A stretch of DNA of 64,000 nt, taken from assembly GCA_963383645.1 (NCBI GenBank), contig OY726557.1, positions 129,924,650 through 129,988,649 on the forward strand. Reading direction: 5' to 3'. The notes under the pieces are model-generated. The model was not told the origin of the DNA and ran no database searches. It was given only the letters and a program-made list of their open reading frames with translations. Numbering within the stretch: the stretch's first letter is position 1; each line of letters starts with the position of its first letter. This DNA comes from Muscardinus avellanarius. Lineage: Eukaryota > Chordata > Mammalia > Rodentia > Gliridae. The translations under genes and the position numbers were made by a program. This document shows positions 38,583 to 60,439 of the stretch, piece by piece.

Positions 38583-38600
38583 TTAAAAAACTATATAGGT

Positions 38601-39056
38601 CCGGGCCTCTGGCCCCAACCCTGGGCGGGTGGGCAGGCGCTGGCGGGGCACCCCTAGGTGACCCCCCCTTCCACCCAGAAGGACCCTGTGGTCCAGGCCT
38701 CTGGCCTCGACCCTGGGCGGGTGGGCAGGCGCTGGCAGGGCACCCCTAGGCGACCCCCTTTCCACCTGGAAGGACCCTGTGGCCCAGGCCTCTGGCCTCG
38801 ACCCTGGGTGGGTGGACAGGCGCTGGCGGGGCACCCCTAGGTGACCCCCTCCCCACCCAGAAGGACCCTGTGGTCCGGGCCTCTGGCCTCGACCCTGGGC
38901 GGGTGGGCAGGTGCTGGCGGGGCACCCCTAGGTGACCCCCTCCCCACCCGGAAGGACCCTGTGGTCCGGGCCTCTGGCCCCGACCCTGGGCGGGTGGGCA
39001 GCTGCTGGTGGGGCACCCCTAGGTGACCCCCTTTCCACCCGGAAGGACCCTGTAAA
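38601..39056 (+). repeat. Minisatellite 1, 91-bp unit, 5 copies
   Basis: Units start at 38601, 38693, 38784, 38875 and 38966, the first being 92 bp. Each starts ccgggcctctggcc or ccaggcctctggcc, has gggcgggtgggcagg and gcacccctagg, and ends aaggaccctgtgg. Copies differ at a few positions. Frames on both strands come from the repeat. Confidence 0.92.
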
Positions 39057-39608: not shown

Positions 39609-41335
39609 GAAGAGGGTGCTCGGATTAGAGCCTGCCGAGGGATGAGGCCAACGATGGACACAGCAAAGCTGGGATTGGAGCCTGTCGTGAGGCAAGGCCG
39701 GTGCTGGAGCCTCCGAGGCCGGGATCGGAGCCTGCTGAGTGGTTAGGCCGGTGCTGGGGCCAGTGAAGTCGGGATCGGATCATGCTGTGAGGCAAGGCCG
39801 GTGCTGGGGCCTTAGAGGCCGGGATCGGAGCCTGCCAAGGGGTTAGGCCGGTGCCGGGGCCAACAAGGCCAGGATCGGAGCTTACCGTGAGGCAAGGCCA
39901 GTGCTGGGGCCTCCGAGGCCTGGATTGGAGCCTGCTGAGGGGTTAGGACGGTGTCGGGGCCAGCAAGGCCGGGATTGGAGCTTACTGTGAGGCAAGGCCA
40001 GTGCTGGGGCCTCCAAGGCCTGGATCGGAGCCTGCTGAGGGGTTAGGACGGTGTCGGGGCCAGCAAGGCCAGCATCGGAGACTTCTGTGCGGCAAGGCCG
40101 GTGCTGGGGACTTAGAGGCCAGGATCGGAGCCTGCCAAGGGGTTAGGCCGGTGCCGGGGCCAGCAGCCAGCATCAGAGACTGCCGTGAGGCAAGGTCAGT
40201 GCTGGGGTCCCGAGGCTGGGGCCGGAACCTGCTGAGGGGTTAGGAACCTGCTGTTGGGGCCAGTGAGGCCGGCATTGGAGCCTGCTGTGAGGCAAGGCCG
40301 GTGCTGGGGCCTCTGAGACCGGGATCGGAGCCTGCCGAGGGGTTAGGCCGGTGCTGGGGCCAGTGAGGCTGGGATCGGAGCCTGCCGTGAGGCAAGGCTG
40401 GTGCTGGGGCTTCCGAGGCCAGAATCAGAGACTGCCGAGGGGTTAGGCCAGTGCTGGGGCCAATGGCCAACATTGGAGCCAGCTGTGAGGCAAGGCCATT
40501 ACTCCAGCCTCCGAGGCCAGGAACAGAGCCTGCGGAGGGGTTAGGCCGGTGCCGGGGCCAACGACTGGCATCAGAGCCAGCCGTGAGGCAAGGTTGGTGC
40601 TGGGGCCTCTGAGGCTGAGATCGGAGCCTGCCAAGGGGTCAGGCCAGTGCCGGGGCCAGCGTGGCTGGGATCGGAGCCTGCCGTGAGGCAAGGCCGGTGC
40701 TGGGGCTTCCGAGGCCAGGATCAGAGACTGCTGAGGGGTTAGGCTGGTGCCGGGGCCAGCGGCCGGCATCGGAGCCTGCCATGAGGCAAGGCTGCTAATG
40801 AGGCCTCTGAGGCCGGGATCAGAGCCTGCTGAGGGGTTAGGCCGATGCCGGGACCAGTGGCCTGCATTGGAGCCTGCTGTGAGGCAAGGCTGGTGCCGAG
40901 GCCTCCGAGGCCGGGATTGGAGTCTGACGAGGGGTTAGGCCGGTGCCGGGGCCAGCGGCCGGCATCAGAGCCTTCCGTGAGGCAAGGTCGCTATTGAGGC
41001 CTCCGAGGCCGGGATTGGAGTCTGACGAGGGGTTAGGCCGGTGCTGGGGCCAGCGGCCGGCATCAGAGCCTTCCATGAGGCAAGGTCGCTATTGAGGCCT
41101 CCGAGGCCGGGATCAGAGCCTGCTGACGGGTTAGGCCGATGCCGGGACCAGCGGCCAGCATTGGAGCCTGCCGCGAGGCAATGCTGGTGCTGGGGTCTCG
41201 GAGGCCGGGATCGGAGCCTGCCAAGGGGTTAGGCCAGTGTAGAGGCCAGCGAGACCAGAATCGGGGCCTCCCATGAGGCAAGGCCGCTGCTTGAGTCAGT
41301 GAGGTCTGGATCAGTCCACCGGGTAGCCAGGCCAC
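39609..41335 (+). repeat. Minisatellite 2, 98-100 bp higher-order unit, about 17 copies
   Basis: The marker ggttagg recurs at 39741, 39841, 39941, 40041, 40141, 40238, 40341, 40441, 40539 and so on to 41227, mostly 97-103 bp apart. Each unit is two diverged halves of about 50 bp, one led by ggttaggcc and the other by ggcaaggcc, both with gatcggagcctgcc. It is GC-rich. The period is not a multiple of three, so the frames across it are not genes. Confidence 0.9.
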
Positions 41336-49060: not shown

Positions 49061-50190
49061 CCTTGCTGGTTATCTAAACTATCTTGTATTTGGTTAATTT
49101 ATTTATTACCTTTGCATTCTTGGGCCTGGTCAGGCAGGAGGGTAAATGAGAGGATGTTCACTGCTGAAAATAAACAAACAAACAAAAAACAACCAACAAC
49201 ACTCCCCCAGTGGCCAGCATTAGTTAACCTTACAGGAGGCAGCTTTATGTGGGCTCACTACATACAGATACAACCACAAGGGCAAATCAGGTATGGGGAC
49301 CCCAAATCTTGAGTCTCTAGCTGCAGTTAAAAGCTATTTCTAACAGCCAAATTTACATATAAATAAATAACTTATCACCTAAGTGGACAGTGTAGAGAGC
49401 TAATCAAAAACTGAGCCGTTCCATTCACCTAGATTCTAAAAATTGAGAGAGCTCCCATTGGCCAGTTTCTGACCACGGGGGTGGGTTTAAACCTTCACCT
49501 CCCTTGGTGTGGCAGGAAAAAGAAAAAAAAAGGAGCACTCACCATCAACCAAATTTAATATATTTAATATGCATGAGAAAGGAGGTGCAAGGAACATTGC
49601 ACTGGCTAGCAAACTTGATATGGAAAAAGAACAGTTGGAGCCATGGAAATATTAATAGTTAAAAATTTAAACATAGGATAGGGAAAAGTAGAGTGCCACA
49701 CACACCCCTGCTATCTGCCAATGAGCTGACAATCAGCAGAGAAGGAAAACAGAAAGCAGAAAGTGAAAAGTGCTTGCAAATCAGTGGGGCCAGTCCCTTT
49801 TGTATACCTGTGAGACAGGACACAGCAGGGGTCCTCTCTAAATATAAACAAGGCAGCACCAGCCCAGCCACAGTACAGCTGCCAGATGAGAGAGAGAAGG
49901 TCTTGAGTAACAAGCTCTTTCTGCTTTCTGTATCCCATTTTCTGCTGGGTGTAATACATTTCATGTCTTCCCTTTCCTTCCTTTCTTTCAAACTTAAGTG
50001 ATTAACTGTATATAAAAGTTGGACGAAATATCTTTGTTTGGGGTCCAGTGTGTGGGAAATTGCCATTACTGGTCTGGGCCATCAGCCACTCAAAAAAAAA
50101 AAAAACAACTAAGCAAACAAACAAACAAACAACAAACAAACAAAAACAACCCTGTACATCCTATACCTGGCCCCCCAGAGTTTTCCTTTT
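47866..50190. other. Unassigned flank of the young provirus
   Basis: Contains a (TC)n, a 33-bp tandem duplication (48583 and 48635), CA/CAAA-rich stretches and no recognised gene. An LTR remnant is possible but not shown. Confidence 0.45.
49003..49060 (+). repeat. (TC)n microsatellite
   Basis: About 28 uninterrupted ct units, not next to a SINE. Confidence 0.9.
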
Positions 50191-50861
50191 TGTTGCAGGG
50201 GATAGGTTGGGGGGGGGGAAAGGTGTGTGAGGTGAAATAATCCCCCCCCACCACCAAACACACAGAGACAAACAGAAAAACCGTGGATTCTTGTCCTAAG
50301 CTAAGAATAAGTATTCATCGCTTGGACAGCTGCTGCAGATTTAAAGAAGTTTATTAAAAAGATAGAAATATAGAGATAGTTAAAGCCCTGTGCCAGAGGA
50401 GACACAGGGGGGCAATTCGACCGAAAATGCCAGAGAATTCCAGTTTACTGAGTTTTTATCCTGTCTAAGTCCGAGGAAGGTCCTTTGATCTGTAGATATG
50501 CTAGCCTTATCTCTAGCCCAGTCTCTGCTGTTTCCAGGAGGATTTGCCCTGGAAGGTGGGGCTGTCCTGCCTTCAAACACAGTCCTCTACACCTCTTGTT
50601 CCATCCCCCGAGATGTGTGAAATTGTTTCTCCCGGCATCTGGGATTTCTTCCGATTTCCCTTAGGCCATTTGTTTCTCTTTCAGAAATGTAAAGAAGCCT
50701 CTCAGGCTTCCTTCCTTTTCCTTTAGAAATGTAAATTACAAGTCCCTCCTTTCTGCTAGCCCTGGCCTTCTTAGTATAAAGGATATATTTTTAGAATTGG
50801 AACTCTTTTCCCAATACTTATACCTTAATACATTTCAAACCCTCTTCCCAATACCAGTACA
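50191..50861 (-). repeat. 3' LTR of the young provirus
   Basis: This copy is identical to the 5' LTR at an offset of 9107 bp, including the G and C homopolymer runs near 50211 and 50242, which normally mutate quickly. It is bounded inside by a polypurine tract and outside by a T-rich flank. Confidence 0.95.
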
Positions 50862-51123: not shown

Positions 51124-52620
51124 TCAGACGGGTTCATGTGGTGTGCGTCTATGACCATCCAGAGGACTCCGATAGATGATCTTGTCAGGGTCTGTTCGTA
51201 ACACCATCTGAAGTCTGAAGGCTTCCAGCCTATGAGAAATAAAGTTTACCACACAATTTAATATACATGGCCCAAAAAATAAAATGACAAGGATGATGAG
51301 AAGAGGAGTTATAAATGGTGTAAGCCATGCCATCCAGGATGAACCATATCCAAACAAACCTTTATATTGGTGAATATGTGTTAATTCTTTCTGCATTTCT
51401 GTTATGAGATTGGTTATTGTTTGTGAATTATCTGTAATATTAAAACAGCACATTCCAGGGAATTCTTGACATCCTATATGGTGAAGTAAAAGCAAATAAT
51501 CTATGGTGGCTCGGTTCTCTAGAGTGGCTTGGCGTACTTCACCCAGTTCTGTGTTAATAGCTGCCAAAGCCAAAGCTGAAGCGTTAATTGTTTTAGTGAA
51601 TAAACATGCGAGTTTATTGATTTGCATATATGCCCCTAGCACTAGCCCCGGAATGGCTAATAAAGTGACTGACAGTCCTGCAACGAGGCCTGTGGACCAA
51701 AGATGAAGATTGTCATCACAATCTGGGGGTAAAGAAGGGAGTGACCGAGTGACTCGTCCACGGGAGGGCACTGGTGGAGTGGGTAAAATCATCCCCAGTT
51801 TGCCTATATAACAACAGCCTTGAAAGCCTTGAGGGATGACAGAATAGGAGAAATTAAAACAGAAAACTGACCAGCCTAAGGGGAGATGTAAATTTGTTGT
51901 TGGAATAGGACTGGTTATTGTATGATTACATTCAAGATTACATGGCACAGGCCCCACACGCAAACAGTCTCCCGGGACAACTACTGAGGTTGGAATAGGA
52001 TCTTCTACTGTCTGAATATGTTTATTAGACGTATACCCCTGATCATTTAGAAATGACGTTATATTAAGGTTTGTTTGTCTTCTAATCTCTTTCTCAGTTA
52101 GTCCCACACCAATTAAGTGAGATGTCAAGACCTGTTGTGCTGACTTTGGCTTAAACATGCAGAAGTGGGATGTATTTAATATATTTTTTGCCATGTGAAC
52201 CCAAAAATTAATATTATTGAGACCTGTAGGAGGCTTCGGGGTAATTTGGATAAAGATATCTGAAGATTCCTTATATGATATATCATTAGGGTATTGCTTT
52301 TGGATTTTAATGCATTTATAAATGCCAGCATCTAGCATAGTGGCTTGAGGCAGAATAATAGAAAAATTAGTATTAGAAGGCTTTGACTGATCCGTTAAAT
52401 TTTTAAATCTGGACTGTTGAATTGTATGAGAAAATATTGTTTTAGAATCCTTTTTCCATATTACCGGGCCTATAGGAGAAGTGCAGTTTGTCCAACAGTG
52501 TAATATCACAGAGTTTCCTATCACTATCATGTTACCGCTGTAGCTAGAGGCTATCAGATAACATCCTTTCGTGAGTGAACACATAATAATCGGAAGAATA
52601 CCACCAATGAATTGCCTCAT
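51124..52620 (-). CDS. env: Envelope glycoprotein with an N-terminal Ig V-like (SIRP-like) domain
   Basis: This is an intact 498-aa frame. Residues 1-19 form a signal peptide. Residues 25-128 read as an Ig V-set domain. The rest of SU runs to RGRVTR (287-292), a furin-type site. In TM, a hydrophobic fusion peptide (about 306-331) is internal and flanked by C301 and C339, as in alpharetroviral Env. A heptad region and an immunosuppressive-like segment precede CX6CC (C384, C391, C392). A membrane span lies at about 432-458 with a 40-residue tail. N-glycosylation sequons are at 45, 74, 85, 149, 186, 232, 256, 346 and 394. It would mediate receptor binding and fusion. The Ig domain occupies the place of a receptor-binding region, so binding a SIRP ligand such as CD47 is an untested inference. 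Confidence 0.93.
   Translation of the reverse strand: MRQFIGGILPIIMCSLTKGCYLIASSYSGNMIVIGNSVILHCWTNCTSPIGPVIWKKDSKTIFSHTIQQSRFKNLTDQSKPSNTNFSIILPQATMLDAGIYKCIKIQKQYPNDISYKESSDIFIQITPKPPTGLNNINFWVHMAKNILNTSHFCMFKPKSAQQVLTSHLIGVGLTEKEIRRQTNLNITSFLNDQGYTSNKHIQTVEDPIPTSVVVPGDCLRVGPVPCNLECNHTITSPIPTTNLHLPLGWSVFCFNFSYSVIPQGFQGCCYIGKLGMILPTPPVPSRGRVTRSLPSLPPDCDDNLHLWSTGLVAGLSVTLLAIPGLVLGAYMQINKLACLFTKTINASALALAAINTELGEVRQATLENRATIDYLLLLHHIGCQEFPGMCCFNITDNSQTITNLITEMQKELTHIHQYKGLFGYGSSWMAWLTPFITPLLIILVILFFGPCILNCVVNFISHRLEAFRLQMVLRTDPDKIIYRSPLDGHRRTPHEPV
52237..52551 (-). other. Ig V-set domain inside Env SU, SIRP-like
   Basis: The visible hallmarks are a B-strand Cys (C42 in SVILHCW), a C-strand Trp in GPVIWKK (W55), RF at 71-72 and NTNFSIIL at 83-90. 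The F-strand signature DAGIYKC (D97 to C103) and a final strand ending ITPKPP complete the pattern. The GPxxW, NxxFSI and DAGxYxC spacing, and the PNDISYKES stretch after the second Cys, resemble the N-terminal V domain of mammalian SIRP proteins. The SIRP comparison is from memory of the host family, not an alignment run. No intron interrupts the domain. Confidence 0.8.
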
Positions 52621-52628
52621 TATTTAAA

Positions 52629-52871
52629 TCAGTTAAGAAAAATAAGTATAATTAAGAAGAGTGAAAAGACACAAATCTGAGTGTCCGTATACTCCAGGAA
52701 AGTCCCCTGGAGCCACTCCTCGTGAATCACTTGTAAGAGTTGTTCAGGAGTATCCAAGGGGCCCCGAGGGAACAAAGTAAGTTCTTGGGTAAAGTCTAAG
52801 AGAAACCTATGAAATTCTTGTAGCGAAAGGGGCATACTAAAGTGTTCTTCGTAATCGAGACTACTTATCAA
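52629..52871 (-). CDS. Small uncharacterised frame between pol and env (80 aa)
   Basis: The frame starts 11 nt inside the end of pol in a different register and stops 8 nt before the env ATG. The protein is acidic and amphipathic for about 65 residues (FHRFLLDFTQEL, EEWLQGTFLEY). It ends in a short hydrophobic segment (VFSLFLIILIFLN) that could be a tail anchor. I recognise no family. It could be an accessory protein, an upstream frame modulating env translation, or chance. In favour of coding are its exact fit between two intact genes and the lack of stops over 80 codons in an otherwise intact young provirus. Confidence 0.45.
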   Translation of the reverse strand: MISSLDYEEHFSMPLSLQEFHRFLLDFTQELTLFPRGPLDTPEQLLQVIHEEWLQGTFLEYTDTQICVFSLFLIILIFLN

Positions 52872-55800
52872 GAGATGTCTTCTTGAACAGAAGTTTAAGT
52901 CCCTCCAGTGGCTCGCAGGAATAGTCCGGGGTGGTCTCTGGGATTTCAGAGGTCACAGCCGGGGCAGGCGGTGGGTTTTCTGCTGTCCACTTCTTAACCC
53001 TGGTATGATGTATCCACGAATCAATGCCAGGTACCTTAACAGCAGTGGGAGTAGAAATGATCACTGGATATGGGCCCATCCAGGGGCTGTCCCTTCTCTC
53101 TATGGATTTGATTAGTACCAGATCTCCTGGACAAAACAAAGGGTCCCCTTTTCCCTCTGGTGCCGTTTGGAGTTTGCTTAAGACCTGTTGATATGTCGCC
53201 AGTTGGGTGACATAATCTGTCAATATTTGAGACTCTGTGTCTAAAACTATATCCTGAGTTAGGAAAGGTCTCCCATATAACTTTTCAAAGGGAGTTAGAC
53301 CTAATCGGCTGGGCGTATTTCGAATCCAAATTAAAGCCATTGGAAGTAATTGCCACCAGGGGGCTTGTACCTCTTGGGCTAGTTTGAGAAGATGTCGCTT
53401 TAAAATCCCATTTGCTTTTTCTACTTTTCCTGAGGACTGGGGGTGCCAGGCACAGTGTAAGTTAAAATCTATTCCCAAAGCTTGTGTAATACCTTGTGTA
53501 ACTTCTGATTTGAATGCTGGCCCATTATCACTCTGTAATGAGCGGGGAACTCCAAAACGGGGAATAATTTCTTGAAGTAGTATCCTTACAACCTCCTGTG
53601 CCTTCTCAGATTTGCAAGCAAAAGCTTCAACCCACCCTGTAAAAGTATCAACTAGAACCAGCATCACCCGATGCCTTTTACCCCCAGCCATGTGGGTGAA
53701 GTCAAGCTGCCAATCCTCACCCGGATATGTGCCCCTCGCTTGTTTTCCTGGCGGGCTTAACAAGCTATTTTTGGGGTTGACTCTAAGACAAATCTCACAT
53801 CCCTGTACAATGTGACTCATAGTTTCTTGCAGCTTGTCTCCCTTAAATAAACGTGAAGCTAATTTTAAGGAATTATCCCTCCCCAAATGGTGCATCTGAT
53901 GGAGGGTTTTAAGTATTTTCCATTGCATGCTCTGGGGAACCCAGAGTTTATTATCAGACGTGACCCACCACCCTCTATTATCCATCTTGCATCCTTGCTG
54001 CTGGGCCTTTACACTCTCTTCATGGGAATACACCGGCCTCACATCAGGCAGCAAGGACCCTTCCCATAGGACAGGGCAGAGTTTCTTACATGGATGGCTG
54101 GCTGCCTCCCGTGCTGCTCTATCAGCCAAGTTATTACCCTGAGAAACAAGATCTGTTCCCCTCTGATGAGCCTGACAATGTAAAATAGCCACTTGCTTAG
54201 GCTTTTGGACTGCCCCTAATAGGTCTAGAATTTGGGACTTATGTTTAATGGGGGATCCTGAGGATGTAAGCAGTCCCCTTTCCTTCCAGATGGCTGCATG
54301 AGCGTGGATAACCAGGAAGGCATATTTTGAATCAGTGTAAATATTTGCCCTTTTTCCCTCTATCAGCTTAAGAGCCCTAGTTAAGGCTATGAGCTCTGCC
54401 AACTGAGCACTGGTGGAGGGGGGTAAAGGTCCTGCTTCCTTCACCTCAAAGGGTGTGGTGACTGCATAACCTGCATATCGTATTCCTTCCTTTACAAACG
54501 CACTGCCATCAGTAAATAACTCCTCGTCAGGGTTTAGGAGGGGCTTATCTGAAAGATCTGGTCTAGGAGTCCAGAGATGTGCTAATGTTTCCTCACAGGA
54601 ATGGACTGGACCCTCAGACTCCTCAGGCAAAAAGGTGGAGGGGTTAAGGGTGTTACATTTCTTTAGTGTTATGTCTGATCCCTCCATAAAAATAGCCTGG
54701 TATTTAAGAATACGACTGTCTGACAACCATAGATGCCCTTTGGATTCTAATAAGCTTCGGAGGTCATGAGGGGTCTGTACTGTGAGGGGTCGCCCTAAGG
54801 TCAGTTTTTGGGCCTCCGGAATTAGAATTCCGACTGCTGCGATTGCTCTGAGACATGCCGGCCATCCCCGGGCCACAGAATCAATTTCCCTGCTGAGATA
54901 AGCCACGGGCTGCGGAATTTCTCCCCTGTTCTGTGTCAACACTCCCAAAGCCACCCCCCTCCTCTCTGAGGTATACAACGTAAATTCCTTTTGGGTAGGC
55001 AATCCCAATGCTGGGGCTTGGCTTAAGGCTTGTTTTAAGTCTTCAAATGCTCGCTTTGCTTCCTCGGGCCACTCAGGGAGTTTAGAACACTCTTGACATT
55101 CCTTAAGAAGGTGATACAATGGTCGGGCTTTTTCAGCAAATCCTGGTATCCAAATACGACAGTATCCTGCCGCTCCCAAAAATCCCCTGAGCTGCCTCGG
55201 GGTGCAGGGGAGGGGGAAGCCTAAGATAGGCTGCACTCTCTCCGGTCCCAGGGAACGTGAATCCCCTTCAAGTATGACTCCTAAGTAAGTAACTTTAGTC
55301 TTACAGAGTTGGGCCTTTTCCCTTGAAACTTTATAACCCTTCTCTGCAAGGAAGTTGAGAAAGGACCCTGTCGCTTTCTCACAACTTTCTTGGGAGGGGC
55401 CGGCAATCAAGAGATCATCTACATACTGGAGGAGTGTGACCCTGGGAAATTCCCAGTCTTCTAAATCTTTAGCCAACACTTGTCCGAATATGTGTGGACT
55501 ATCTCTGAACCCTTGAGGTAGCACCGTCCACGTTAACTGTCGTCCACCCCCCCTTGGATCCTCAAAGGCAAAAAGTAATTGACTTTCCTCATGGAGGGGA
55601 ACACACCAATACCCGTCCTTAAGGTCCAATACTGAGTAACATTGTGTCCCCCCCGGAATTTGGGTTAATAAAGTGTAAGGATTAGGGACTACAGGATGGA
55701 GTGGAATCACAGCTTCATTCACTAGTCTGAGATCCTGTACCAACCGCCATTTGTCTTTTCCCTTCCGTACACCCAGAATAGGAGTATTATATGGGCTGGT

Positions 55801-56364
55801 ACACTCTTTTAATAAACCCAAGCCGAGTAAACGATTTACAATCGGCAACAAGCCGTCCTTTACCTCTGGCCTAAGGGGATACTGTTTTTGCCTGGGAAAG
55901 GCAGATGGATCTCTAAGCTTAATGAGTACAGGTTTAGCTGACAAGGCTCGTCCCACCGTCCTCCCGTCTGTCCATACTGCTGGATTAATATCCACCTCTA
56001 ACAGAGGGAAGCACCCCACTGTACCTGAGGGAAGGATCAATTTTACTTTTGTTTTTGACATTATATCTCTTCCTAGCAATGGGGCTGGGGTTTCTGGAAT
56101 AACTAAGAAACAATGGGAAAAATGTAAGTCCCCCCAGGAGCAGGGGAGCTCTTGGGTAAAAAAATGCTCTAAGGGCTTGCCAGATATGCCTCGAACTGTT
56201 ACTTTACGAGAGGATCTTGGGCCAGGGGAAAACGGTAAAGCAGAGAATCTAGCGCCTGTGTCCACTAAAAACCGGACAGTTTGTGAGCCCACCGTTAAAG
56301 TCACCCAAGGCTCCTCGGTCTTTATCCAGGAGGTGGGGGCCTGGAGAGGCGGCCCTGGGGCCCA
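52861..56364 (-). CDS. pol: Pro-Pol: protease, reverse transcriptase, RNase H, integrase
   Basis: This uninterrupted frame has 1147 codons from the first ATG (56304) and about 20 more back to the UGA. It would be made as Gag-Pro-Pol by UGA readthrough. Counting from that ATG, the protease DTG is at 15-17 with LLGRD near 77. RT has YSVLDLKDGYW (Asp227) and YVDD at 294-297. RNase H has FTDGS (Asp599), a Glu near 637 and YTDSK (Asp658). The integrase zinc domain has H802, H806, C836 and C839. Its catalytic core is D868, D926 and E962, with 35 residues between the last two. WMGPY at 1075-1079 is the GPY domain seen in gamma- and epsilon-type integrases. Every catalytic motif I looked for is present. 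The last four codons overlap the next small frame. Confidence 0.95.
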   Translation of the reverse strand, partial: WAPGPPLQAPTSWIKTEEPWVTLTVGSQTVRFLVDTGARFSALPFSPGPRSSRKVTVRGISGKPLEHFFTQELPCSWGDLHFSHCFLVIPETPAPLLGRDIMSKTKVKLILPSGTVGCFPLLEVDINPAVWTDGRTVGRALSAKPVLIKLRDPSAFPRQKQYPLRPEVKDGLLPIVNRLLGLGLLKECTSPYNTPILGVRKGKDKWRLVQDLRLVNEAVIPLHPVVPNPYTLLTQIPGGTQCYSVLDLKDGYWCVPLHEESQLLFAFEDPRGGGRQLTWTVLPQGFRDSPHIFGQVLAKDLEDWEFPRVTLLQYVDDLLIAGPSQESCEKATGSFLNFLAEKGYKVSREKAQLCKTKVTYLGVILEGDSRSLGPERVQPILGFPLPCTPRQLRGFLGAAGYCRIWIPGFAEKARPLYHLLKECQECSKLPEWPEEAKRAFEDLKQALSQAPALGLPTQKEFTLYTSERRGVALGVLTQNRGEIPQPVAYLSREIDSVARGWPACLRAIAAVGILIPEAQKLTLGRPLTVQTPHDLRSLLESKGHLWLSDSRILKYQAIFMEGSDITLKKCNTLNPSTFLPEESEGPVHSCEETLAHLWTPRPDLSDKPLLNPDEELFTDGSAFVKEGIRYAGYAVTTPFEVKEAGPLPPSTSAQLAELIALTRALKLIEGKRANIYTDSKYAFLVIHAHAAIWKERGLLTSSGSPIKHKSQILDLLGAVQKPKQVAILHCQAHQRGTDLVSQGNNLADRAAREAASHPCKKLCPVLWEGSLLPDVRPVYSHEESVKAQQQGCKMDNRGWWVTSDNKLWVPQSMQWKILKTLHQMHHLGRDNSLKLASRLFKGDKLQETMSHIVQGCEICLRVNPKNSLLSPPGKQARGTYPGEDWQLDFTHMAGGKRHRVMLVLVDTFTGWVEAFACKSEKAQEVVRILLQEIIPRFGVPRSLQSDNGPAFKSEVTQGITQALGIDFNLHCAWHPQSSGKVEKANGILKRHLLKLAQEVQAPWWQLLPMALIWIRNTPSRLGLTPFEKLYGRPFLTQDIVLDTESQILTDYVTQLATYQQVLSKLQTAPEGKGDPLFCPGDLVLIKSIERRDSPWMGPYPVIISTPTAVKVPGIDSWIHHTRVKKWTAENPPPAPAVTSEIPETTPDYSCEPLEGLKLLFKKTSLDK

Positions 56365-56691
56365 TCATTGGGGGTCTGGTGCTGATGTCCTTCGATCCCT
56401 TCGGATCGGGGGGCAGTCAGACTTCCAGTGATTCCCCCTGCATCTTGGGCAGGGCCCTTTAGTCCTGCTAGTTCCTTGAGGGCACTGGTTCCTATAATGC
56501 CCCGGCTCCCCACATTTGAAGCAACAATTTGCCTGGGTTTTCATGGGGGTCTCACACCTTTGTCTCGGAGTCCTTGTGGACTTAGCATTTGAATACATCG
56601 CTGCCAAGATTTCTCCATGGCGCTTCTCTTCCCGTTTTTCCCTGTCCCAATCTCTATTATAATAAACTGAATTGGCAGCCTGTACCAATTG
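56365..56691 (-). CDS. gag: Gag nucleocapsid part, downstream of the internal UAA
   Basis: This is the same frame as the upstream gag, separated only by the UAA at 56692-56694. It has no ATG near its start, so it needs readthrough or a reverted stop. A charged run (DWDREKREEKRHGEI) precedes two zinc knuckles. The first is CFKCGEPGHYRNQC, a canonical CX2CX4HX4C. The second is CPRCRGNHWKSDC, one residue short between the second Cys and the His. NC binds the RNA genome. The frame ends in a UGA at 56365-56367, after which the pro-pol frame continues without shift. Confidence 0.88.
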   Translation of the reverse strand, partial: QLVQAANSVYYNRDWDREKREEKRHGEILAAMYSNAKSTRTPRQRCETPMKTQANCCFKCGEPGHYRNQCPQGTSRTKGPCPRCRGNHWKSDCPPIRRDRRTSAPDPQ

Positions 56692-57855
56692 TTATAGCGT
56701 GTATTTTCCCAAATCTGATGTCACTTTCTGCAATTTTCTTCTTATATCTGGCGCAGATTGCGTTAAAAATTTGTCCCTGAGGAGAGCCTCACCTTCTATC
56801 GAATCAGGAACTATGTTCGTAAATTTTATCATAGTCTCTCTTAATCTTTCTAAGAAAACCATAGGGGCCTCTTCAGGGGTTTGATGTATAGCTGCCAATT
56901 GACTATAATTTAGGGGTTTAACCTTTGCTCTCTTCAATCCCTCCTGTATGCAGTATAGATAATGATTCCTATCCCATTCATTTTTAGGGATATCAGGGTC
57001 CCACTTGGGGTCTACAAGTGGCACAGCTTGTTCCCCTGTAGGAATATTTCGTCTATCCTCCGATTCCCCATTCGTGGAGGCCGCAAAATAATCATCCCCT
57101 ACTGCTTTGGCTTCTTTATATACTCTATCTCTTTCTATAGATGTCAGAGTTTGTTCAAGAAGTAATCTAACATCTCTCCAAGTAAGATCATACAATGAAC
57201 TGAGTAATCTGAATGCCTTTATGTAATGGTCAGGGTCAGTAGTATAATTTCCCAAGTCCTTTTTAATTTCTTTCAGTTCTGCTAGCGAGAAAGGCTGATG
57301 GACTCGCTTCGACCCGTTTTTCCCCCCTCCTACCGTGACAAGAGGAAACATTCCTTCTTGCCCCCAGGCCTCGGGCACCCCCTGGGTCTCCCTCATATCA
57401 GAGTTGCTACCCTGAGGTGGAGGGGCCTTCGTCTGGTTTGATCCCTTGGGCATGAGAGGGGGTCCTGTGGCTCCTATAAGGCCCTCTTCCTGATTGTTCG
57501 GTCCCGTTTGTGTTTTAGATTCTGTTTTAGCCAAAGCTGCCACAATAGCCTCAACCTTGCACACTTTAAGTAACTCTGGGTGTTCCCGTAAGTAGAAAAA
57601 CAACTGAAGATAAGCTATCTCTGTCCATTTACCCTCTTTTCTACAAAATAGGTCCAATTGCCTTAAAATCTTGTAATTGAAACTTCCCTGTGGGGGCCAC
57701 GTGTCTTCGTCCCCTAGCGCGTACTGCGGCCATACTTGGGTGCAAAAAAATATGAGAGCTTTCTTCTTTAGCATCTTAGGGTCACACTTCTCCCAATTTT
57801 GGAGAACACATGCGAGTGGAGATCCAGATTCCACCTTGGAGTGCTGGGAACCCAT
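56692..57855 (-). CDS. gag: Gag, MA-p12-like-CA part, ended by an in-frame UAA
   Basis: The gene encodes the structural polyprotein that builds the particle at the membrane. I chose the ATG at 57855, not the upstream one at 57933, because it gives MGSQHSK, a myristoylation-type N-terminus. Residues 1-110 look like a gammaretroviral matrix domain (WPPQGSFNYKILRQLDLF and an EIAYLQLFFYL segment). Residues 111-170 are a proline- and glycine-rich linker. CA starts near residue 171 (PLVTVG) and has a major-homology-like stretch at 326-342 (TPEEAPMVFLERLRETM). A UAA follows residue 387, before NC, and the frame continues unchanged. No PPxY or PTAP late motif was seen. The stop may be a nonsense mutation or a leaky stop. 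Confidence 0.9.
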   Translation of the reverse strand: MGSQHSKVESGSPLACVLQNWEKCDPKMLKKKALIFFCTQVWPQYALGDEDTWPPQGSFNYKILRQLDLFCRKEGKWTEIAYLQLFFYLREHPELLKVCKVEAIVAALAKTESKTQTGPNNQEEGLIGATGPPLMPKGSNQTKAPPPQGSNSDMRETQGVPEAWGQEGMFPLVTVGGGKNGSKRVHQPFSLAELKEIKKDLGNYTTDPDHYIKAFRLLSSLYDLTWRDVRLLLEQTLTSIERDRVYKEAKAVGDDYFAASTNGESEDRRNIPTGEQAVPLVDPKWDPDIPKNEWDRNHYLYCIQEGLKRAKVKPLNYSQLAAIHQTPEEAPMVFLERLRETMIKFTNIVPDSIEGEALLRDKFLTQSAPDIRRKLQKVTSDLGKYTL

Positions 57856-59275
57856 CTGAGAGGGAAAAGGGTGTGGTTTAGTGTCCTGTCTGAGCGGAGG
57901 TCGTCCCCTCCTCCCCCAGAGCTGTGCACTCAAACCGAAAATCCCGGCGTTTAGGACATGCCTGGAACCTCATTTTTCGACAGAAAAGCATATGGTGCGC
58001 AGAAGGTTGTCCTTCTGACCCTGCACCGTGTGAAAGTGGGGGCCTAGAGGGTGGCCTCATTTCCCACGCTTTGCTGCCCACCGGGAGGGTCTTAAATGGG
58101 AAGAGGCTTTGCCACCCTTTCCCCTTGCCCATATTCCCCTGTCCGATCGAGCTGCTTGGCCCGCTCTCTGTCCGATGAGACTTCCTATCCTAAAGCCATG
58201 GGTACAGCTGTGGACGTCCAGCTGTCCCGTCCGTGGAGAAGCACGGGGCAGTACTTTCCACCAACCGAAATGGATATGGAGATTTAGCCCCCTTACTCCT
58301 GTTCCATTTCCCGCACTTTCACAGTGCCCCCCTTTTCCCGATGGGGTGTCTACTGCCATTTTTCACCAAAAAAATGGTCTTCCTACTGTGTTTTCCTGTA
58401 TTCACTTCACTCATTCAAGGCCTAAAATCCCCACGCCGGCCAGCGGCTGGGCGTTGCCTTTCTTTGAGGCGCCTCCTCGGAGGGCTTTTCCATGCAAATT
58501 GAGCTTTTCCTGCCTGTTGAATGTCAAACAATTCCTGCTGAGTGCTGCAGTCACCTCGCAGACTTGCCTGACTGAAACTTTTCTTTTTGACCTCTTGAAA
58601 AAACTTAACCCTTCATGCTCTGAAATTTAGGACTATTACACGTGGCTCCAGTTACCAATGGCAACGCTACCTAGATGCCGTCTTTAAAAACAAACGTGCT
58701 AGCTTATCTTCCTAGAATCTGTTTCAAATTACAAAAAAAAACTACCATCCCCTAGCTTGGGTCTCCTGTTTGGAGAGCTTCCTCAAGGTGGGCCATGGGC
58801 ATTTTTAGATTTAACTTTGTATAGGGATTTTAACAGTGTCCCATCCGTGATGTGGGCCTAATAGATGGGCACTCATTGGGCCTGACAAGACAATAGCGGT
58901 TTCCGAGAAGCCTCAATAAGGACCAAGCACTGGCCCTGCACCCCCTACGTAGGCATAGGCAGCAAAGATCTTACCCCCGTAGGGTGCGGATCTCAGATCG
59001 CGTACTGGCCGCCACTAAGCCTTGTAGTAGGCCGGGAGGAGGTTCTCAGTCCTCTATCGTCCCCTACACTATTTAATGGGAAATTTTCCCTTCCCCTGGA
59101 GATTCTGCCGTAGCTAGGCCGTGGCAGGGGGGTCTCCATGGTTCCAGAGAGCTCATTGGCGCCGGCAATCCAGTCATCCTCTGAGATCTGGTCCCATTTT
59201 AGGGAAGGTTACTGACCTTCAAGATGCAGTGGCTTTAGAACCACCGTCGGCTGGAGTCACCTGCAGCTGTAGATA
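57856..59275 (-). other. Untranslated leader of the young provirus (packaging and splice-donor region)
   Basis: About 1.4 kb lies between the primer site and the gag ATG. Several frames of 60-170 codons exist on both strands, but none resembles a known protein. Donor-like minus-strand motifs are AAGGTCAGT near 59209-59219 and GGGGTAAGA near 58968-58977. Which one is used to make env mRNA cannot be decided by reading. The gag frame stays open 26 codons upstream of its likely start, to 57933. Confidence 0.6.
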
Positions 59276-59293
59276 GCCCCACGTTGGGCGCCA
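59276..59293 (-). promoter_or_regulatory. Primer-binding site, tRNA-Lys1,2 type
   Basis: The plus-strand 18-mer gccccacgttgggcgcca equals the 3' end of tRNA-Lys1,2 including CCA. The proviral strand therefore reads TGGCGCCCAACGTGGGGC. This primer is typical of several beta-type, spuma and lentiviral elements. It is unusual beside gag-pol of gammaretroviral character. Confidence 0.92.
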
Positions 59294-59456
59294 AATATGT
59301 TGCAGGGGATAGGTTGGGGGGGGGGAAAGGTGTGTGAGGTGAAATAATCCCCCCCCACCACCAAACACACAGAGACAAACAGAAAAACCGTGGATTCTTG
59401 TCCTAAGCTAAGAATAAGTATTCATCGCTTGGACAGCTGCTGCAGATTTAAAGAAG

Positions 59457-59462
59457 TTTATT
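59457..59462 (-). promoter_or_regulatory. AATAAA polyadenylation signal in 5' LTR (copy at 50350-50355 in 3' LTR)
   Basis: The plus strand reads tttatt, so the minus strand reads AATAAA. It lies about 100 nt downstream of the TATA-like motif, as expected for the R region. The copy in the 3' LTR would serve the proviral transcript. Confidence 0.6.
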
Positions 59463-59560
59463 AAAAAGATAGAAATATAGAGATAGTTAAAGCCCTGTGC
59501 CAGAGGAGACACAGGGGGGCAATTCGACCGAAAATGCCAGAGAATTCCAGTTTACTGAGT

Positions 59561-59569
59561 TTTTATCCT
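59561..59569 (-). promoter_or_regulatory. Candidate TATA box in LTR U3
   Basis: The minus strand reads GGATAAAAAC here, about 100 nt upstream of AATAAA. The assignment rests on spacing and composition only. An alternative TATA-like stretch lies near 59880-59900, but it is too far from the poly(A) signal to fit a normal R region. Confidence 0.35.
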
Positions 59570-60439
59570 GTCTAAGTCCGAGGAAGGTCCTTTGATCTGT
59601 AGATATGCTAGCCTTATCTCTAGCCCAGTCTCTGCTGTTTCCAGGAGGATTTGCCCTGGAAGGTGGGGCTGTCCTGCCTTCAAACACAGTCCTCTACACC
59701 TCTTGTTCCATCCCCCGAGATGTGTGAAATTGTTTCTCCCGGCATCTGGGATTTCTTCCGATTTCCCTTAGGCCATTTGTTTCTCTTTCAGAAATGTAAA
59801 GAAGCCTCTCAGGCTTCCTTCCTTTTCCTTTAGAAATGTAAATTACAAGTCCCTCCTTTCTGCTAGCCCTGGCCTTCTTAGTATAAAGGATATATTTTTA
59901 GAATTGGAACTCTTTTCCCAATACTTATACCTTAATACATTTCAAACCCTCTTCCCAATACCAGTACAGTTGTGTATTTGTGTAATGTGTCTGTCTACAT
60001 GGTACTACCAATTAACAGTGATATAGTAAGTATTCATAAAATTTAATGAAAATATAAAATCTGTGCTGGTTTGGGAAATTGCCCCGTATTGATTCCAAAT
60101 TGAACCAGTTACTGAGGGTGATCAGAGCTTGGATGCTGCTCAAACACTCAGGCAGGCAGGAAAAAAAAAGGTACATAACAAGTACACTGACCAACAGTAA
60201 GATAATACCACCTATCTAAAATGAGTTGCTAGCTCCTTGTCTTGGGAATGCTGATAAGAGCACATGCTTTTTTCCCTAGTTAGTTAGGTGGTCAGTCAAG
60301 GTTACAAAGTTTATTGCCTTTAAAAGTCTTCTCTGTGTCAAAAAAAAAAAAATGCATTTAAGACACTGCCACAGCAATTTCATGCAGATCTTGAGAAAGC
60401 TCGATCAGGGGATCCGTAACGGCATAGATCCCCCATGAA

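Follow-up and report, generated by a model that had tools for sequence, protein, structure and literature searches.

We analyzed a 64,000-nucleotide window of the Muscardinus avellanarius genome (assembly GCA_963383645.1, contig OY726557.1, forward-strand positions 129,924,650 to 129,988,649; coordinates below are those of the window). A minus-strand provirus runs through it from 59968 to 50191, with gag, pro-pol, and env in that order between two long terminal repeats (LTRs). Its env open reading frame (ORF; 52620–51124, minus strand) reads from ATG to TGA over 498 codons without an internal stop. The envelope protein (Env) it encodes begins with a probable signal peptide, directly followed by an immunoglobulin (Ig) V-set domain related in sequence to the signal-regulatory proteins (SIRPs), and then by the remainder of the surface subunit (SU) and a retroviral transmembrane subunit (TM) (Table 1). 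An earlier note, drawn from the sequence alone, had described this arrangement, and the intact Env with its N-terminal, SIRP-related V-set domain stands. Two further proposals of that note, capture from mRNA and CD47 as receptor, were not established.

The block first picked out, 52237–52551 on the minus strand, corresponds to residues 24–128 of the env ORF. All elements of the V-set pattern lie where they had been placed: C42, W55 within GPVIWKK, RF at 71–72, NTNFSIIL at 83–90, DAGIYKC ending in C103, and TPKPP at 127–131. A profile search for Ig V-set domains bore this out, as the Pfam-A V-set model matched residues 34–105 with E 1.2e-6 (29.1 bits against a cut-off of 26). The ig model matched residues 34–103 (E 1e-5; 26.1 bits against a cut-off of 21.8), and Ig_3 and Ig_2 stayed under their Pfam cut-offs in this region. 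A chance V-set pattern was rejected on the basis of the Pfam scores, a PDB search headed by SIRPs, and a shuffle test (both below). A misplaced or fused host gene outside the provirus was rejected likewise, as the ORF is flanked by pol and an LTR in the same orientation. Fold models of the region were poor (predicted local distance difference test scores of 50.7 and 46.6). Searched with such a model, Foldseek placed SIRP first, with E 5.5e-3 at best, and VIA-align was unspecific, with no SIRP V-domain rows among 50.

Kinship with the SIRP family, also proposed in the earlier note, emerged clearly from sequence searches. When residues 24–137 were compared with PDB sequences by phmmer, SIRPα, SIRPβ, and SIRPγ filled the first 19 rows (E 1.1e-11 to 1.5e-9). 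The first rows from outside the family were pIgR (8.8e-4 over 27 residues) and CD226 (0.027), so that almost six orders of magnitude in E separate SIRP from pIgR; SIRP is thus the nearest family within PDB sequences, among the best 60 of 74 rows. The longer SIRP alignments extend from Env residue 31 to 132–134, where some chains may end in tags from the construct. Local alignment to five SIRP pieces gave scores of 136–145, whereas 1000 shuffles per piece never scored above 53. In the reverse direction, a tblastn search of the window with these five pieces as queries found a single significant place, the V-set domain (E 4e-14 to 2.4e-13), with a runner-up at E 0.21. Homology of the Env V-set domain to SIRP therefore appears almost certain.

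Identity amounts to 31/102 positions with one human SIRPα and 29/81 with mouse NOD SIRPα, or roughly 30–36% overall. Over the common core (residues 32–113) the mouse chain scored 136 and four human chains 111–118, and of the columns that differ between human and mouse SIRPα and hold an Env residue, 26 in all, Env agreed with mouse in six and with human in two. A rodent donor is hinted at, on the strength of one mouse chain and no phylogeny, and a recent or rodent-specific origin is not established at about 30–36% identity. A protein database queried with residues 25–135 yielded no hit among 14 candidates. SIRP family members carry a V domain, two C1 domains, a membrane segment, and either a SIRP tail or a DAP12 lysine. 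Neither C-type domains nor a SIRP tail were found behind the Env V-set domain. Because it precedes an SU remainder and a retroviral TM instead, we refer to it as a SIRP-like domain and not as a SIRP.

The rest of SU is a cysteine-rich stretch of about 161 residues. Queried apart, Env residues 129–300 found no match up to E 10 in either PDB or Pfam. The motif CXXC is absent from residues 1–300, and an SU without CXXC is the alpharetroviral condition according to the available part of PMC9967133. With the whole protein as query, the top match by E-value was Syncytin-2 (2.5e-17 over residues 253–475), reaching through the membrane anchor, which lies within residues 427–463. A TM fragment of avian sarcoma and leukosis virus (ASLV) followed at 2.4e-11 over residues 341–410, and filovirus GP2 reached 7e-7 at best.

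Behind the V-set domain, Env combines traits of two kinds. Characteristic of gamma-type Envs are the CX6CC motif with a stretch resembling the immunosuppressive domain upstream, the furin-type site, and the membrane anchor. Of the alpharetroviral kind, by sequence, are the cysteine-bracketed internal fusion loop and the glycan site in heptad repeat 1 (HR1). Residues C301 and C339 bracket the hydrophobic peak, and a disulfide between them is putative. Identity with the ASLV TM extends to 27 of 70 columns; over 57 TM columns, 23 are shared with ASLV and 13 with Syncytin-2. Env thus looks like an alpha-type protein set in a gammaretroviral frame. The occurrence of alpharetrovirus- or filovirus-like TM traits (51583–51720, minus strand) in a mammalian gammaretrovirus-like provirus may reflect a separate recombination event.

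Wider searches revealed no close relatives of this Env. A protein database scored 7999 candidates for the whole protein, none of which reached E 0.001. IMG/VR gave eight pattern matches for env and two for pol, with relatives for neither query; the env miss means little, because the same method also failed to turn up a near relative of pol. Prokaryote contigs yielded 14 pattern matches and no relatives, and no families matched in NCBIfam and PHROGs.

The gag and pol genes are gammaretrovirus-like by their Gag_p30 and MLVIN_C domains and by the top PDB match of pol, the reverse transcriptase/RNase H p80 entry 4hkq (3e-185). An in-frame TAA (56692–56694) interrupts gag ahead of its zinc-knuckle part. 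The stop separating gag and pro-pol in their common frame is a TGA (56365–56367, minus strand), which in gammaretroviruses is mostly TAG. The gap from the pol stop to the env ATG is filled by an 80-codon open frame (52629–52871, minus strand) that differs in frame from both. It has an ATG at codon 13 and a hydrophobic C-terminus; Pfam offered no relative, with DUF7795 ranking best at E 0.15, under its cut-off. By eye, an AATAAA and a TATA-like word were spotted in the 5' LTR. The primer binding site, TGGCGCCCAACGTGGGGC, we take to be of the tRNA-Lys1,2 type, presumably making it a Lys-type site within a gammaretrovirus-like provirus.

LTR identity suggests a young provirus, at most 0.5–1.0 million years old at rates of 4.5e-9 and 2.2e-9, a bound to be taken with care given that a target-site duplication is absent. 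At 50187–50190 and 59969–59972, the four bases outside the LTRs disagree (CAAC on one side, AAAA on the other), which leaves recombination of the provirus possible, and changes or recombination in the flanks may account for the mismatch. B1-like units with an apparent ID-like tail occur around the provirus, a pairing typical of squirrels and related rodents; the B2 and ID words tried matched nowhere with up to three mismatches. Two tandem arrays are also present in the window, one in which a GC-rich 91-nt unit occurs five times (38598–39053) and another in which a 98-nt unit occurs about 16 times (39677–41291).

Table 1. Features of the provirus and of its Env, with window coordinates.
Feature	Coordinates	Strand	Basis or remark
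5' LTR	59298–59968	−	671 nt, TG...CA; no differences from 50191–50861
Primer binding site TGGCGCCCAACGTGGGGC	59276–59293	−	begins four bases past the 5' LTR
gag, first part (matrix to capsid)	56692–57933	−	Gag_p30, E 5.4e-21 (Pfam)
gag, nucleocapsid part	56365–56688	−	zf-CCHC, E 5.1e-6 (Pfam); frame shared with first part
pro-pol (protease, reverse transcriptase, RNase H, integrase)	52861–56304	−	1147 amino acids open, in gag frame; Pfam
env	51124–52620	−	intact 498-amino-acid ORF
Probable signal peptide, residues 1–24	52549–52620	−	hydrophobic 19-residue window from residue 5
SIRP-like V-set domain, residues 25–131	52228–52548	−	Pfam, PDB sequence search, alignments
Rest of SU, residues 132–292	51745–52227	−	furin-type site RVTR (289–292) at its end
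TM, residues 293–498	51127–51744	−	TLV_coat, E 5.9e-11 (Pfam)
Putative internal fusion loop, C301 to C339	51604–51720	−	hydrophobic windows over 305–334 and cysteine positions
N346 glycan site, HR1	51583–51585	−	aligned with ASLV Asn
CX6CC motif, residues 384–392	51445–51471	−	sequence
3' LTR	50191–50861	−	671 nt, TG...CA; same as 5' LTR at every base

A host-like reading frame thus sits inside a provirus with LTRs, gag, and pol, the arrangement expected of an endogenous retrovirus (ERV) that has captured a host gene. The sequence kinship of the outer Env domain with SIRP suggests that an immune-receptor domain of a host was at some time taken up by the virus and built into the protein that meets cells. 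We consider capture from the host very probable as the origin of the V-set domain. The earlier note had gone further and invoked an mRNA intermediate from the missing intron. SIRP V domains are encoded by one exon, and the homologous block is a single Ig domain, so the absence of an intron says little and is no proof of an mRNA step.

Base composition bears on when the capture may have occurred. The G+C content at third codon positions (GC3) is 0.324 in the V-set domain, close to the rest of SU (0.338) and the TM (0.330); values are higher in pol (0.436), in the first part of gag (0.428), and in its nucleocapsid part (0.509). The V-set domain is, by this measure, at home in env and looks unlike a newcomer. 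Together with an identity of about one third, the GC3 match points to an old capture, in an env lineage that would later have joined the present gag-pol or drifted in composition. On balance, we favor a recently inserted class I (gammaretrovirus-like) provirus in which a host SIRP gene is the ancestor of the V-set domain at the start of SU.

The favored history could have proceeded as follows. An ancestor of the env lineage would have taken up the V exon of a SIRP gene or the corresponding cDNA. Within the virus, the domain would then have evolved, keeping its Ig frame and about one third of its letters. It now occupies the place held by the receptor-binding domain in other gamma-type Envs, and would serve SU for attachment. 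Once its loops engage a protein on the cell surface, the ASLV-like TM would be released for fusion. Attachment through these loops would be the simplest use of a V-set domain that holds the usual place of a binding domain, and we regard this role as reasonably likely.

CD47 is an obvious candidate for the partner of these loops. The earlier note suggested that the domain could still bind CD47, either as a receptor or by occupying it and disturbing CD47–SIRP signaling. In favor of this, the scaffold is SIRP-like, and the accessible text of PMC10304963 lists ten CD47-contact hot spots of SIRPα, with K53, R69, R95, and K96 as the salt-bridge residues among them. Env retains the human residue at three of the ten (G34, P35, and K96), with close replacements at two more (V33 to I and T67 to S). 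It matches mouse SIRPα at four (G34, P35, T at 53, and Q at 95), and mouse itself equals human SIRPα at just six, so that some drift fits binding. Against CD47 stand the remaining changes (L30 to T, Q52 to H, K53 to T, R69 to P, and R95 to Q), where places 52 and 53, in the C'D loop, follow the mouse SIRPα alignment and the human alignment gaps the loop otherwise.

K96 is the sole salt-bridge residue kept, although in the alignment mouse SIRPα also lacks K53, R95, and K96. R69, in contrast, is common to mouse and human and is Pro in Env. The BC loop further carries a possible glycan at N45 and an extra cysteine, C46, both unfavorable to the same contact. Loss of ligand binding has a precedent within the family, as two activating SIRPβ alleles are described, in the portion of PMC3664923 at hand, as lacking it through differing mechanisms. 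With most of the ten hot-spot positions altered, CD47 is an unlikely partner and an unlikely receptor. The changed loops argue instead for a non-CD47 partner or a reshaped CD47 contact. Less likely still is the combined proposal that, in a retrovirus lineage of squirrel-type rodents, a captured SIRP V domain replaced the receptor-binding domain and gives both entry through CD47 and a block of CD47–SIRP recognition. If true, one stolen domain would provide attachment as well as interference with phagocyte control.

A similarly improbable alternative is that the V-set domain is an immune decoy. SU would then display a SIRP-like surface that binds a non-CD47 SIRP ligand or a SIRP partner, or that hides the virus from antibodies, and attachment would reside in residues 132–292. 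Viral mimics of a similar kind are known from herpesvirus CD200 (PMC3664923) and a poxvirus CD47 mimic (PMC9230063), as far as the accessible parts of these papers go, and a cysteine-rich SU remainder is available for the task. That remainder, however, has no PDB or Pfam relative and gives no indication of binding a receptor, and the V-set domain stands at the SU N-terminus, the usual place of the binding domain.

We think it very unlikely that env now serves the host, as a syncytin-like gene or a restriction factor, and owes its open frame to that use. An intact env beside a gag with one in-frame stop would fit such a role. Against it, pol too is open, and with no difference between the 671-nt LTRs the insertion may be so recent that decay has not yet set in. 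Least probable of all, and thought unlikely given the sequence specificity for SIRP, is that no capture took place and that this is an ordinary gammaretroviral receptor-binding domain convergent with SIRP: such domains of murine leukemia virus (MLV), feline leukemia virus (FeLV), and EnvP(b)1 do have an Ig variable (IgV) topology by the part of PMC12051499 available, but the sequence likeness reaches E 1e-11 to one Ig superfamily member family across the whole domain, and no retroviral receptor-binding domain appeared among the best 60 of 74 PDB rows, up to E 10.

To our knowledge, retroviral Envs bind their receptors through a wide variety of domains, whose origins are for the most part not known. 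Here the donor family can be named, so the idea that Envs acquire attachment domains from host receptors becomes testable in a single young, open gene. If CD47 or another myeloid ligand were bound, this would be a natural case of a virus exploiting that axis on its receptor side. The earlier note knew of no described retroviral Env with such a domain, and among the matches listed in the full-text literature, which leaves most subscription papers outside its scope, no Env with a SIRP-like V-set domain was reported either. The available portions of PMC13297096, PMC10152393, and PMC10536682 contain nothing on Ig or SIRP domains in Envs, and those of PMC12975943 and PMC3462797 nothing decisive. 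Host-gene capture by retroviruses is already known; new here is that a gamma-type Env has a V-set domain resembling that of SIRP as its N-terminal region.

Comparison with known systems places the dormouse Env between several of them. With domain 1 of SIRPα, SIRPβ, and SIRPγ it shares the cysteines, GP.W, D.G.Y.C, the K..P(D/N)D loop, and the KP exit; it differs in its limited identity (29/81 with mouse and 31/102 with human SIRPα), its location in a viral Env, and N45 and C46 in the BC loop. ASLV Env and filovirus GP2 resemble it in the cysteine-bracketed hydrophobic loop, the HR1 glycan site, CX6CC, and an SU without CXXC. Unlike these, it belongs to a mammalian gammaretrovirus-like provirus, opens SU with a SIRP-like V-set domain, and finds its best match by E-value in Syncytin-2. 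The receptor-binding domains of MLV, FeLV, and EnvP(b)1 share its N-terminal SU position and have the IgV topology reported in the accessible part of PMC12051499, without any sequence likeness among the best 60 of 74 PDB rows. A host V-set protein in a retrovirus is also represented by FeLV tcr, a T-cell-receptor-beta-like protein of 321 amino acids, which PMC12474240, in its available part, does not describe as part of Env. In CrocERV31 of crocodilian ERVs a host Ig superfamily gene likewise occupies the env position; there, according to the part of PMC4299795 at hand, captured nectin3 replaces env, whereas here a single V domain is joined to a gamma-type fusion subunit.
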